Part shown: one piece after another, positions 15,138 through 18,972 of the stretch | Position numbering within the stretch: position 1 is the stretch's first letter | Layout: each line of letters starts with the position of its first letter | Assembly: GCF_036174265.1 (NCBI RefSeq) | Contig: NZ_CP108055.1 | Location: forward strand, 5,580,001-5,644,000 | Source of the DNA: Streptomyces sp. NBC_00285 | GTDB lineage: Bacteria > Actinomycetota > Actinomycetes > Streptomycetales > Streptomycetaceae | DNA length: 64,000 nt | Reading direction: 5' to 3' | Translations under genes and position numbers: made by a program | The notes under the pieces: model-generated | Database searches by the model: none | What the model was told of the DNA's origin: nothing | What the model saw: only the letters and a program-made list of their open reading frames with translations

Positions 15138-15198
15138 CCCCGGACCCGGGCCGCGCGGTCCGGGCGAAAACCCTTCGCGCCGCCTCCGCGCCTCCCGC

Positions 15199-15204
15199 TA
15201 CCGT
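15199..15204 (+). promoter_or_regulatory. Candidate -10 box for leaderless leader-peptide transcript
   Basis: TACCGT ends 6 nt before the ATG of the Thr leader ORF, and no ribosome site precedes that ATG. This spacing puts the transcript start at the ATG. The -35 region (TTCGCG near 15174) is poor, so the promoter is tentative. Confidence 0.4.
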
Positions 15205-15210
15205 CCTCTC

Positions 15211-15273
15211 ATGCAGCGCGCCCAAGCAGTCCCGTCGATCACGACGACGCCGGAGCAGGTCCCGGTGCGCTGA
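15211..15273 (+). CDS. Threonine leader peptide of ThrRS paralogue
   Basis: 20-codon ORF (reads MQRAQAVPSI, then three Thr, then PEQVPVR) ending in TGA at 15271. Three consecutive ACG threonine codons occupy 15241-15249. A strong terminator hairpin begins 16 nt after the stop, and a threonyl-tRNA synthetase gene follows. This is the layout of ribosome-mediated attenuation, as known for Streptomyces trp and branched-chain amino acid leaders: shortage of charged tRNA-Thr would stall the ribosome on the ACG run and prevent termination. The leader is too short for automatic gene calling. Confidence 0.72.
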   Translation: MQRAQAVPSITTTPEQVPVR

Positions 15274-15288
15274 CCGCTGACGCAGTCC

Positions 15289-15318
15289 GAAGCCCCGGGG
15301 CGAGTGCCCCGGGGCTTC
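15289..15318 (+). terminator. Attenuator terminator upstream of ThrRS paralogue
   Basis: GAAGCCCCGGGG (15289-15300) and CCCCGGGGCTTC (15307-15318) form a perfect 12-bp stem with a 6-nt loop, 45 nt before the ThrRS start. A competing pairing is possible: GUCCCGG (15259-15265, inside the leader ORF just after the Thr codons) with CCGGGGC (15295-15301), 7 bp including one G-U. It would block this hairpin and could be the antiterminator. Confidence 0.75.
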
Positions 15319-15363
15319 GTCGTTCCCGCCGGTCCCTCGCCCCCCACCCCGAGGGAGACCCGC

Positions 15364-16584
15364 ATGTACGACCACCGCCGACTCGGCCGTGAGCTCGATC
15401 TGTTCGACACCGACCCGCTGATGGGCGCGGGGCTGCCGTACTGGCTGCCCGACGGGGCCGTCGTACGGCATGTCCTGGAGGAGTACGTCAGGGAGGCGGA
15501 GCGGGCCGCCGGGTATCGGCACGTGTATTCGCCGGTGCTCGGGAAGCGGGAGCTGTACGAGATCTCCGGGCACTGGGACCATTACAGCGAGGACATGTTC
15601 CCGCCGATGCGGCTGGGCGGCGAGGAGGTCGTCCTGCGGCCCAGTCTCTGCCCGCACCACGCCCTCATCTACCGGTCCAGGTCGCACAGTTATCGTGAAC
15701 TCCCGCTTCGGATGGCCGAGTTGGGCGGCATGTACCGGTCCGAGCCGTCGGGCGTCCTCGGCGGTCTCACCCGCGTCCGTTCCATCCAGCTCAACGACGC
15801 CCACATCTTCTGCACCCTGGAGCAGGCGGTCGAGGAGGCCCGCGCCGCCCTCGGCCTCATCCGCCGTGCCTACGACGACCTCGGCATCCGGGCGAGCCGC
15901 TACCGCCTCTCGCTCCCGGGCGACGGCGGCAAGTACGTGTCCGACCCGCACCTCTGGGACCGTGCCACCGCCCTCCTGAAGGAGGTCCTGGACGGCGTCG
16001 GCGTCGCGTACGAGTCGGCCGAGGGCGAGGCCGCCTTCTACGGCCCCAAGATCGACGTACAGATCACCGACCCCGCGGGCCGCGAGTCGACCCTGTCCAC
16101 CGTCCAGATCGACTTCCACCAGCCCGAACGCTTCGACCTCCACTACATCGGCCCCGACGGCGCCAAGCACCGCCCGGTCATGGTCCACCGCAGCGTCATC
16201 GGCAGCGTGGAGCGGCTGGTCGCGCATCTCGTCGAGGCGCACGGCGGCGCGTTCCCGGCGTGGCTCGCCCCGGTGCAGCTCGTCGTCCTGCCGGTGTCCG
16301 ACGCCCAGGAGGAACAGGCCCACGACGTCGTACGGCAGGCTCTCGCGCGCGGCATCCGGGCCGAACTCGCCGCTCCCGGCGACGGCACCCTCGCCGCCCG
16401 CATCCGCGCCGCGCGCCTGGTGCCGTACCAGGCGGTGATCGGCGAGCGGGAGGCCGACGCCGACTGCGCGGCCGTACGGCTGCGGGACGGCCGTAGGCCC
16501 GGAGCGGTGCCGGTCCACGACCTGCTGGACCGGATCGCCGCCAGGGACGGTGATCGCGGGGCCGAACTCTGGGCGGCTGCGTAA
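15364..16584 (+). CDS. thrS: Threonyl-tRNA synthetase paralogue without editing domain
   Basis: 406 aa, against roughly 650 for a full bacterial ThrRS. It begins directly in the class II catalytic core, so the N-terminal TGS and editing domains are absent. ATG 15364 follows GAGGGAG. Motif 2 reads MYRSEPSGVLGGLTRVR (123-139) and motif 3 HRSVIGSVERL (275-285). The zinc ligands Cys96 (SLCPHH), His147 (NDAHIF) and His275 are all kept, so it should activate threonine. GAFPAWLAPVQ (295-305) opens the anticodon-binding domain (about 305-400). It is probably a second, inducible ThrRS controlled by the Thr-rich leader upstream. Such paralogues can confer tolerance to ThrRS inhibitors, which is only inference here. 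The nucleoside hydrolase starts 39 nt downstream. Confidence 0.9.
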   Translation: MYDHRRLGRELDLFDTDPLMGAGLPYWLPDGAVVRHVLEEYVREAERAAGYRHVYSPVLGKRELYEISGHWDHYSEDMFPPMRLGGEEVVLRPSLCPHHALIYRSRSHSYRELPLRMAELGGMYRSEPSGVLGGLTRVRSIQLNDAHIFCTLEQAVEEARAALGLIRRAYDDLGIRASRYRLSLPGDGGKYVSDPHLWDRATALLKEVLDGVGVAYESAEGEAAFYGPKIDVQITDPAGRESTLSTVQIDFHQPERFDLHYIGPDGAKHRPVMVHRSVIGSVERLVAHLVEAHGGAFPAWLAPVQLVVLPVSDAQEEQAHDVVRQALARGIRAELAAPGDGTLAARIRAARLVPYQAVIGEREADADCAAVRLRDGRRPGAVPVHDLLDRIAARDGDRGAELWAAA

Positions 16585-16622: not shown

Positions 16623-17585
16623 GTGACCGGTCAGCCCATCCCGGTGATCATCGACTGCGACACCGGTGTCGACGACGCCCTGGCCCTGCTGTTCGCCGTA
16701 CGGCATCCCGGCATCGATCTGCGCGCGGTCACCTGTGTCGCCGGGAACACCGACGTCGACGGCGTGGTCCGCAACACGCTGACCGTCCTCGAGCAGGCCG
16801 GGGCCGGTGACATCCCGGTCGCCCGGGGCGCCGCGCGGCCGCTGATCGAGCCCGTGCGCACCGCGCAGCACGTGCACGGGCAGGACGGCATGGGCGACCT
16901 GGGGCTGCCCGCGCCGACCCGGGTGGCGGTGGACGTGGACGCGGTGACGCTGCTCAGGCGGGAGATCCTCGCCTCGCCGAGGCCGGTCACCCTGATCCCG
17001 ACCGCGCCGCTGACGAACATCGCCCTGCTGCTGCGCACTCACCCCGAAGTGGTGCGCAACATCGAGCGGATCGTGTTCATGGGCGGCGCGGTGGCCACCG
17101 GGAACGCCACGCCCGTCGCGGAGTTCAACGTCTGGCACGACCCCGAGGCGGCCGCCGTCCTGCTCACCGCGGGCGTGCCGATCACCATGTACGGCCTGGA
17201 CGTCTTCGAGCGGGTCATCGTCCCGGCGGCGGACGTCCAGCGGCTGCGCGCCAGTTCGGAACCCTCCCTCCGCATGGCGGGCGAACTCCTCGCCCACCGC
17301 GACCCGGCCACCTCCGGCGATCCCACCCCCACCGGCGGCCTCGGCGACGCGGGCGCGGTCTGCGCGGTCGTCGACCCCGGGGGCCTGAGCACCGAACTCC
17401 TCCCGGTGGAGGTCTCGTTGGCCCCCGGCCCGACCCGCGGCCAGACCGTCGTCGACCGCCGCCCGCGGCCCGGCGAGTCCGAGATCCACGGCGGCGAGCG
17501 CGAAGTCACCCTCGTGGACGTGGCGTTGGGCGTGGACGTGGACCGCTACGTGAAGCTGTGGCTGACGGCGGTGGAGGGGGTCTAG
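16623..17585 (+). CDS. Nucleoside hydrolase (IunH/RihA family)
   Basis: 320 aa. GTG 16623 begins 39 nt after the ThrRS gene. The N-terminal calcium-binding signature 'IDCDTGVDDALALLFA' (9-24) is intact, with 'VAGNTDVDGVVRNTL' and 'HGQDGMGDLG' following. The 'IVFMGGAVATGNATPVAEFNVWHDPEAA' region holds the ribose-binding Asn and the metal Asp ligands. It hydrolyses the N-glycosidic bond of ribonucleosides to base plus ribose for salvage. No signal peptide is present, so it is cytoplasmic. Specificity (purine or pyrimidine) cannot be read reliably. Confidence 0.9.
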   Translation: MTGQPIPVIIDCDTGVDDALALLFAVRHPGIDLRAVTCVAGNTDVDGVVRNTLTVLEQAGAGDIPVARGAARPLIEPVRTAQHVHGQDGMGDLGLPAPTRVAVDVDAVTLLRREILASPRPVTLIPTAPLTNIALLLRTHPEVVRNIERIVFMGGAVATGNATPVAEFNVWHDPEAAAVLLTAGVPITMYGLDVFERVIVPAADVQRLRASSEPSLRMAGELLAHRDPATSGDPTPTGGLGDAGAVCAVVDPGGLSTELLPVEVSLAPGPTRGQTVVDRRPRPGESEIHGGEREVTLVDVALGVDVDRYVKLWLTAVEGV

Positions 17586-17610: not shown

Positions 17611-18720
17611 TCAGTCGGCCGTCGCCTCGGCGGCCCGTGGTGTCCACCGCTGCTCCACCTTCGCGAGCCGCCAGTAGCTGATCGCCGCCGCCCACACCAC
17701 CACGAACAGGCCGACGATGATGTAACCGACGTTGTCGAGGTCGATGTCGGCGATCCAGGTGGTGAGGGCGTCGCTGAGGTCGAACTTGTCGTGCAGGACG
17801 CCGACCAGCTCGATCGTGCCGATGAAGAACGCGACGGCGATGGACAGCCCGGTGATGGCGAGGTTGTAGAACACCTTGCGCACCGGGTTGGAGAACGCCC
17901 ACTGGTAGGCGAAGTTCATGAACGTGCCGTCGAGGGTGTCGAACAGGCTCATCCCGGCGGCGAACAGCAGCGGCAGGCAGAGGATCGCGTACCAGGGCAG
18001 CCCGGCCGCCGCCCCCGAGCCCGCCATCACCATCAGCGTGACCTCGGTGGCGGTGTCGAAGCCGAGCCCGAAGAGGAAGCCCAGCGGATACATCTGGCCG
18101 GGCCGGGTGATGGACTTGGTGAGCCGCCCGAGGATCCGGTTCATGAAGCCGCGCGAGTCGAGATGCTGCTCCAGCTCCTTCTCGTCGTACGTCCCCGCCC
18201 GCATCGCCCGGAAGACCTTCAGGATGCCCAGCAGGGCGACCAGGTTGAGGGCGGCGATGACGTAGAGGAACGAACCGGAGACCGTCGTACCGAGAAATCC
18301 CAGCACCTGGTGGGTACTTGAGCCCTCGTTCATGACCTTGCCGGCCAGCTGGGTGCCGCCGGCGATCAGTGCGGCGAGCAGGACCACGACACTGGAGTGC
18401 CCGAGCGCGAACCAGAACCCTCCCGACACCGGCCGTTTTCCGTCGGCCATCAGCTTGCGGGTGGTGTTGTCGATCGCGGCGATGTGGTCGGCGTCGAAGG
18501 CGTGCCGCATGCCGAGGGTGTAGGCGGTGATGCCGAGTCCGATGCCGAAGGCCTTGTCGCCCACCTCGTAGTGCTCCGGGACGACGAGCAGGAAGAGGAT
18601 GCCGAACGCTACGACGTGCAGGGCGGCGATCGCGGCCATCAGACCGACCGTCTTGACGGTGTCCTCGCGGCGCCAGCGGAAGGAGGCGGCGGCGCTCTCG
18701 GGCAGGGCAGGGTCGGTCAT
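17611..18720 (-). CDS. HoxN/NiCoT-family nickel/cobalt transporter
   Basis: 369 aa. ATG 18720 is preceded by GGAG 10 nt upstream, so the frame upstream of it is riboswitch DNA, not protein. Eight or so helices carry the NiCoT signature 'GMRHAFDADHIAAIDNTTRK' in helix II (RHAFDADHI), plus 'GFWFALGHSSVV', 'LGFLFGLGFDTATEV' and 'LFAAGMSLFDTLDGTFM', all diagnostic. It is a secondary importer of Ni2+/Co2+ in the cytoplasmic membrane. The B12 riboswitch upstream argues that cobalt for cobalamin synthesis is the physiological cargo. The convergent nucleoside hydrolase ends 26 nt away. Confidence 0.94.
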   Translation of the reverse strand: MTDPALPESAAASFRWRREDTVKTVGLMAAIAALHVVAFGILFLLVVPEHYEVGDKAFGIGLGITAYTLGMRHAFDADHIAAIDNTTRKLMADGKRPVSGGFWFALGHSSVVVLLAALIAGGTQLAGKVMNEGSSTHQVLGFLGTTVSGSFLYVIAALNLVALLGILKVFRAMRAGTYDEKELEQHLDSRGFMNRILGRLTKSITRPGQMYPLGFLFGLGFDTATEVTLMVMAGSGAAAGLPWYAILCLPLLFAAGMSLFDTLDGTFMNFAYQWAFSNPVRKVFYNLAITGLSIAVAFFIGTIELVGVLHDKFDLSDALTTWIADIDLDNVGYIIVGLFVVVWAAAISYWRLAKVEQRWTPRAAEATAD

Positions 18721-18762
18721 ACGGTGGTCACTCCAGCACCTCGTGGATGAACGCGTGAGCTG

Positions 18763-18952
18763 CCGTGGCCGGTCTCCTGGCTTACGGGTCGTACGTTTCC
18801 CTGCCCGCCTTCCCGGCCTCGTGCTGACGGCCAGTGGCTGTCCCGCGAGGGACATGGGAGGGGAACTCCCCGATCACAGTGGCGAGGGCCGCGCCGGTCT
18901 GGACCCCAGAGGGGTCGTCACCGGCTTCCCGAGCACCACGGCTCGACCACGG
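18763..18952 (-). promoter_or_regulatory. Cobalamin (AdoCbl) riboswitch controlling the Ni/Co transporter
   Basis: On the minus strand this leader shows the conserved blocks of a B12 riboswitch in order: GGGAAGCCGGTG, then a small hairpin (ACCCCTCTGGGGT), GACCGGCGCGG, the invariant CGCCACTGT, and the B12 box AAGCCAGGAGACCGGCC at 18784-18768. The ends can pair as P1 (CCGTGGTC near 18952-18945 with GGCCACGG at 18770-18763). It lies about 43 nt upstream of the transporter start, so ligand binding would reduce expression when cobalamin is plentiful. Confidence 0.93.
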
Positions 18953-18972
18953 TAGGGGTGCGAACCGTCTCC

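Follow-up and report, generated by a model that had tools for sequence, protein, structure and literature searches.

A conserved threonine-codon leader, probably a ribosome-mediated attenuator, precedes a second threonyl-tRNA synthetase gene in Streptomyces and other actinobacteria

In the thr operon of Escherichia coli, an operon for biosynthesis, ribosome stalling on the threonine codons of the thrL leader controls a terminator. The thr operon is counted among the attenuated operons, its leader contains eight ACC codons, and selective charging of the threonine isoacceptors has been verified (PMC1183508). A study from 2005 on Streptomyces attenuators, among them those of trpS and leuS, reported no conserved threonine structure (PMC1262725). 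A leader named thrL was published in 2021 upstream of the threonyl-tRNA ligase gene thrS (SLIV_19410) of Streptomyces lividans, where it is described as leaderless and termination is left unclear (PMC8079986); a sequence-only reading of the DNA studied here had named no described threonine leader of an actinomycete synthetase, and the novelty which this implies is not supported in view of that publication. Table 4 of the same source lists further synthetase leaders, namely alaL before alaS and trpL2 before trpS. As for promoter control, S. coelicolor thrS2 appears in Table 1 of PMC7157823 among the synthetase genes activated by WblC, alaS2 and trpS are also listed there as activated, and the WblC box is given as GAAAWY, 3 nt above the -35 element. 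The product of SCO3778 has been named a threonyl-tRNA synthetase (PMC10771440).

We analysed a stretch of 64,000 nt from Streptomyces sp. NBC_00285 (the window), in which a short reading frame precedes a gene for a second threonyl-tRNA synthetase (thrS2, encoding ThrRS2; Table 1). We estimate at roughly 0.85 the probability that positions 15211-15318 form a ribosome-mediated transcription attenuator of this gene, orthologous to S. lividans thrL, judging from sequence comparison. The leader has its ATG at 15211 and its TGA at 15271-15273, with 20 codons and three consecutive ACG codons exactly where they had been read before, and it combines a putatively translated short frame with a run of regulatory codons. 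The T-box covariance model gave no match in the window at the Rfam gathering threshold, where a cobalamin riboswitch was the sole match, and we rejected a T-box or other Rfam family as the identity of the leader. That riboswitch (18750-18955, minus strand, 85.3 bits) lies at the start of the gene at 17611-18855, which presumably encodes a nickel/cobalt transporter. The housekeeping thrS gene of the same genome has no such leader in the 401 upstream bases read, nor by pattern in 700, and a covariance-model search of the genome returned one strong match, the window leader itself, together with two weak ones (E 0.07 and 0.17), one of which is the palindromic hairpin itself on the opposite strand.

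Table 1 Positions of the leader, its promoter, its RNA pairing regions and thrS2 in the window.
Feature	Positions	Strand	Basis
WblC/WhiB7-type box GAAAAC, lying 33 nt above the first -10 base	15166..15171	+	GAAAWY consensus match
-10 element TACCGT, 12 nt above the ATG of the leader	15199..15204	+	sequence and comparison
Leader ORF thrL, MQRAQAVPSITTTPEQVPVR followed by stop	15211..15273	+	ORF/sequence reading and conservation
5' arm AGCGCGCC, predicted partner GGUGCGCU (15264-15271) when the ribosome is absent	15215..15222	+	fold
Control codons ACG ACG ACG (Thr)	15241..15249	+	sequence and conservation
Region 1, CGCCGG, partner region 2 (15262-15267)	15248..15253	+	fold and comparison
Region 2, GUCCCGGUG; 15259-15265 is the antiterminator 5' arm	15259..15267	+	fold and comparison
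Region 3, CCGGGGC, antiterminator 3' arm and part of the terminator 5' arm	15295..15301	+	fold and comparison
Terminator-like hairpin (3:4), 13 bp, loop GAGU, followed by a weak U tract	15289..15318	+	fold and covariation
Putative ribosome-binding site of thrS2, GAGGGAGA	15351..15358	+	sequence
ThrRS2 (thrS2), catalytic core and anticodon domain, no N-terminal editing domain	15364..16584	+	Pfam/equivalog match

A short ThrRS of near full length (ThrRS2, at least 63% identity) was found in 97 of 199 Streptomyces genomes, so that about half of the genus lacks it, and 93 of these 97 genomes have a leader with three ACG codons, three have one with two and one has none. Together with 80 named loci, one of them from Streptacidiphilus (L080), this gave 180 loci with matches and 171 distinct upstream regions, L002 and L003 having been excluded beforehand. 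The leader is not a chance finding: an in-frame ACGACGACG leader with three ACG codons is present in 165 of these 171 regions. Two Thr codons are found in L100, L117 and L123, the leader is lost and the hairpin kept in L126, a natural decay variant, and neither is present at two second ThrRS2-like copies, L180 (genome G094, a fragment) and L181 (genome G014, a paralogue of 56% identity). The peptide of L123 is exactly that of S. lividans thrL, MKRVRPFLETTPGFVPAR, and precedes a ThrRS2 of 79% identity; from this peptide identity we take the two leaders to be orthologous. The alignment of upstream regions of orthologous short ThrRS genes, which had been proposed as a check, thus returned a conserved run of Thr codons and a covarying hairpin.

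The -10 element lies 12 nt before the ATG, and transcription should therefore start at or near the first leader codon. In the Streptomyces set a TANNNT element precedes the leader start by 12 or 13 nt at 160 of 165 loci, the other five having no -10 element or too little upstream sequence, and at all 39 loci of other families, where the search picked among in-frame starts to fit. A strict GAAAWY box is found in 77 of the 160 promoters (shuffled mean 0.25, maximum 4) and a relaxed one in 129, mostly 32-33 nt above the -10 element among the matches. In the other loci the strict box occurs in 11 of 39 (0.07 when shuffled), so it is absent from most of them, and the relaxed box in 20 of 39. In the window strain, where the box stands at this fixed distance above the -10 element, we find a putative WblC-type promoter of thrS2. 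If the S. lividans genes behind alaL and trpL2 correspond to the WblC-activated alaS2 and trpS, an attenuator combined with WblC control may be a common design of spare synthetases.

For the analysis of RNA structure, L092 and L121 were dropped as they had no ribosome-site match, which left 163 leaders, 107 of them non-redundant; alignment A1 holds 96 of these 107 and alignment A2 holds 42 of 47. The wide alignment A3 (84 sequences) consists of 75 selected sequences minus L062, whose leader had been displaced by a false match, plus ten additions, namely L049, L217-L220, L223, L259 and L260, which the hairpin filter had set aside, and L051 and L130, which had been redundant. In L049, a natural decay variant, the hairpin loop and one arm copy are lost and the palindrome remains. 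Across A3, the 19 pairs of 1:2 and 3:4 are formed in 92.3% of cells and two-sided changes affect nine pairs, all in the terminator (9 of its 13), with 41 such cells against 10.2 in shuffles (0 of 500 reaching this); the 96 Streptomyces sequences show six covarying pairs and 14 cells against 3.5 (0 of 500). A control with partners shifted by one column still gave up to 34 cells and eight pairs, which the palindromic nature of the CCCCGGGG arms may explain. The sequence-only reading had described a perfect 12-bp terminator at this place: the stem is indeed perfect and closed by a GAGT tetraloop, its length being 13 bp instead.

The alternative pairing of 15259-15265 with 15295-15301, also proposed earlier, is real: it has seven pairs, one of them G-U, and folding 15256-15302 gives it as the best structure, although 13 of 200 shuffles of that segment fold equally well. 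The energy of this fold is unremarkable, as 13, 19, 55, 43 and 13 of 200 shuffles equal it in the five sequences tried; it amounts to -22.3 kcal/mol in the window against -33.7 kcal/mol for the terminator alone; the whole leader folds better than 200 of 200 shuffles (z -3.34). When the segment between the edge of a ribosome stalled at the first Thr codon and region 3 is folded, the five core antiterminator pairs appear in 106 of 107 non-redundant leaders and four of them in the remaining one. No two-sided change was seen in the antiterminator, which is formed in 96.0% of cells against a shuffle mean of 96.3%, and because it is nearly invariant covariation cannot prove it. In silico, mutually exclusive 1:2, 2:3 and 3:4 pairings are present and placed so that stalling would free region 2, the 2:3 pairing without covariation and not above shuffles, and the attenuator reading is upheld in its Thr-codon leader, covarying hairpin and conserved antiterminator but not in antiterminator covariation. 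With region 4 present, the terminator is predicted at -42.2 kcal/mol against -28.2 for the antiterminator, an advantage of 14 kcal/mol, and the switch must therefore be kinetic. Furthermore, all eight pairs between the 5' arm AGCGCGCC and GGCGCGCU can form in 141 of the 163 leaders, against 2% in shuffles, and this pairing would sequester region 2 in the absence of a ribosome. In the fold of 15241-15285 the CG dinucleotides of the ACG run are base-paired, and RNA structure may be part of the reason why the leader uses ACG.

Of an intrinsic terminator, the stable hairpin is present and the U tract is poor, with a mean of 2.1 T in the 8 nt past the stem. This weak tract is what one would expect if the hairpin did not terminate and control acted on translation of thrS2, for example by a hairpin over its ribosome-binding site, near which a CUCGC...GCGAG motif is common by eye; yet pairing of that site averaged 0.766 against 0.743 in shuffles (p=0.04, 106 sequences), which is hardly above control, and we consider translational control unlikely. 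The hairpin at the ribosome-binding site was rejected as a second switch on the same figures. In L142, L127 and related loci CUCGC:GCGAG is replaced by CUUGC:GCAAG or CUUGC:GCAGG, a possible compensatory change.

We return to transcription attenuation, for which we infer the stalling, the structural switch and termination itself as follows. The WblC/WhiB7-type promoter would start the transcript at the leader ATG. While the Thr-tRNA that reads ACG is charged, the ribosome would reach the UGA just past region 2 and, standing at the stop (15271-15273), cover region 2, so that the 3:4 hairpin would form and transcription would end. If charged Thr-tRNA became short, through threonine starvation or inhibition of ThrRS, the ribosome would stall on the ACG run; with its A site on 15241-15249 it would lie over region 1 (15248-15253) and leave 15259 onward free or nearly so, whereupon regions 2 and 3 would pair and transcription proceed into thrS2. 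This geometry is taken from the usual footprints of ribosomes.

Outside Streptomyces, the covariance model matched 47 of 296 genomes of the class, in 16 of 114 genera, and 48 of these 296 have a ThrRS2; model searches of more than 40 genomes ran with stricter filters, which lose weak matches. Model match and ThrRS2 occur together in 44 of the 48 ThrRS2 genomes, the leader ending 32-364 bases before the ThrRS2 match, and a leader is present in 46 of the 48, two of them (G388 and G397, both diverged) recognised by eye. The ThrRS2 genes of G341 and G480, which had no model match, lie at contig ends, that of G480 starting 55 bases into its contig. In G429 the leader MARVFWSTTTPGISRRLSLAR followed by stop (L228, 990-1098) precedes a full-length thrS and ThrRS2 was not found in the genome; in G422 (L261) the leader lies about 117 bases from a contig end and no ThrRS was found. 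Two model matches without a ThrRS, L184 and L229 (G375), were judged to be chance and rejected. In the phylum sample seven of 396 genomes matched, five of Streptomyces together with G522 and G819. G522 belongs to another class and has a ThrRS2 of 76% identity, which may be contamination; in G819, with a ThrRS of 46% identity, the sequences of regions 2 and 3 are CUCCGG and CCGGAG, so that the antiterminator is kept with other letters.

This conservation bears on a different reading of the threonine run, as a stall site that senses drugs such as chloramphenicol or oxazolidinones and reports antibiotics instead of Thr-tRNA charging, in the manner of whiB7 or erm-type leaders. These drugs arrest ribosomes that have Thr, Ser or Ala in the position preceding the P site. 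The WblC-type promoter and the place of thrS2 in the WblC regulon would fit such a sensor, as would the context-specific action of chloramphenicol and linezolid (PMC13410324). However, Ala or Ser would serve it equally well, yet 165 of the 168 leaders in the Streptomyces set have three Thr codons. Thr codons are also found at 39 of 39 other loci, the run being ACGACGACG in 38 and ACCACGACG in one (the pattern asked for Thr and all listed loci fitted), single losses of Thr go to Ala, Met and Glu, and in the set of model-match loci examined for it the downstream gene is a ThrRS everywhere but at L184 and L229 (chance) and L186 (contig end). We give drug sensing a slim chance.

ThrRS2 has 406 residues, and its Pfam domains are the class II core and the anticodon-binding domain only, which bears out the earlier statement that the synthetase lacks the editing domain. 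The window protein (P0001) scores 452.6 bits against the ThrRS equivalog (cut-off 383.65), and the same genome encodes a full-length housekeeping ThrRS, 43% identical to ThrRS2 over the core. The Cys/His/His residues which we take to be the active-site zinc ligands are present in 212 of 212 ThrRS2 sequences, as expected of an editing-deficient second ThrRS. At the site of human L567 (E. coli L489) ThrRS2 has Q in 207 of 212 sequences, and at the sites of A592 and M411 it has S in 205 and 206 of them, respectively; the housekeeping enzyme of the window genome has L, A and M at these three sites, and the contact residues S386, G387, H388, F539 and Y540 are unchanged in all 212, this mapping of the borrelidin site being our own, from the alignment. 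Changes at E. coli H309 or L489 raise the Ki of borrelidin 300- to 1,000-fold, and the producer's own ThrRS differs at the equivalents of human H391, F539, Q566 and L567 (PMC4389257); borrelidin in turn raises ribosome stops at threonine codons (PMC13410324). These residue differences suggest that ThrRS2 may tolerate borrelidin, and, with thrS2 listed as WblC-activated, they would be compatible with the inducible resistance role put forward in the sequence-only reading. A nucleoside hydrolase-like gene (16623-17585) begins 38 bases after the ThrRS2 gene, and the two are possibly co-transcribed; among the 80 named loci, the flanking sequence analysed contains a homologue of it in 74.

What is new here is that the Thr codons of the leader are ACG while ThrRS2 is nearly free of ACG, an avoidance of which we found no report in the open-access literature. 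ACG accounts for 0.6% of 2018 Thr codons in distinct ThrRS2 sequences, and 245 of 256 ThrRS2 loci contain none (the 219-locus and 256-locus sets hold some genes twice, and codon totals come from distinct sequences only); the window gene has eight Thr codons, all ACC. By comparison, ACG makes up 34% of 2333 Thr codons in the neighbouring nucleoside hydrolase, 36% of 1925 in a neighbouring lipoprotein gene, 30% of 978 in 36 coding-like ORFs of the window and 24% of 789 pooled codons in 29 housekeeping thrS genes that have no such leader, with a range of 4% to 45%. The fraction is 0.005 in genome family f1, 0.015 in f17, 0 in f18 and 0.015 in f19, and the counts for single genes from f37, f58 and f54 are 0 of 4, 0 of 10 and 1 of 12. 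L180 and L181, the copies with no leader, each contain ACG and together hold five of the nine ACG codons of the whole f1 set, one being a fragment and the other distant, and L126, where the leader is lost, has none among eight Thr codons. The full-length thrS behind the leader of G429 has no ACG among 23 Thr codons (24 in another count), the lowest of 30 such genes, and differs from 11 related controls (52 of 290) at p of about 0.02, a single case; the housekeeping thrS of G471, which has no leader, has 1 of 27.

A highly expressed gene might show the same avoidance through general codon optimisation alone, as ACC is the major Thr codon of these genomes and six of the 29 housekeeping thrS genes are also low, at 4% to 10% ACG. 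Nevertheless, the other codon families of the same ThrRS2 genes are ordinary (GCG 38%, CCG 58%, GTG 44%), and in the ThrRS2 alignment the median share of GCG over 25 conserved Ala columns is 37%, with none below 2%, against two ACG codons in total in 17 Thr columns, so that optimisation seems an improbable cause. A functional leader peptide, conserved for its sequence as the near-constant TTTP(E/D)xVPAR of the Streptomyces set might imply, is very improbable and was rejected, since the leaders vary in the loop that joins regions 1 and 2, both arms being near-fixed at every codon position, L067 and L145 are frameshifted with the RNA kept and the peptide end changed, and the distant L227, L228 and L259 have different peptide ends.

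The codon partition fits a sensor of tRNA-Thr(CGU) combined with a gene exempt from the starved codon, an isoacceptor logic which we infer. The tRNA-Thr genes of the genome are two GGU, one CGU and one UGU (74 tRNA places, 72 typed). ThrRS2 is also poor in threonine, with 8 among its 406 residues where the housekeeping core has 18 among 401, and as its reading frame avoids ACG, tRNA-Thr(GGU) should continue to support its translation. We would give even odds to a codon-partitioned emergency circuit in which the sensor reads ACG (tRNA-Thr CGU) and ThrRS2, Thr-poor and written almost only with ACC and ACT (tRNA-Thr GGU), can be made when ACG decoding fails, the WblC promoter arming the system under antibiotic stress and the attenuator releasing a borrelidin-tolerant spare ThrRS only if Thr-tRNA is short. 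WhiB7-type antibiotic stress would thereby be linked to a tRNA-charging check on a spare synthetase.

The attenuator of E. coli thr controls biosynthesis, whereas the window leader precedes a synthetase. The closest relative is thrL of S. lividans TK24 (PMC8079986, Table 4), which shares the leaderless start, the Thr codons and the hairpin, has two Thr codons where the window leader has three, and is presented in the available text of that account with no antiterminator, cross-species comparison, promoter box or codon analysis; we found neither a comparative account of the leader nor a link between thrL and WblC in the open-access literature. Comparative evidence thus points to a genuine Thr-codon attenuator that is conserved, of which one member had been published and whose codon partition is unreported. 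What had been one annotated leader becomes an element shared by several families of actinobacteria and open to a clear test. The WblC/WhiB7 regulon resembles the present case in listing thrS2 as an activated synthetase gene and in its GAAAWY box, but concerns the promoter, and the available text makes no mention of a Thr attenuator (PMC7157823). The trpS and leuS attenuators of Streptomyces are likewise leader-peptide controls of synthetases in the same genus, for other amino acids (PMC1262725). Finally, the E. coli thr attenuator uses ACC codons and the window leader ACG, the opposite choice, and the opposite codon preferences of sensor and target make this a natural case of the selective-charging idea (PMC1183508), in which one can test whether attenuators report a single tRNA isoacceptor.
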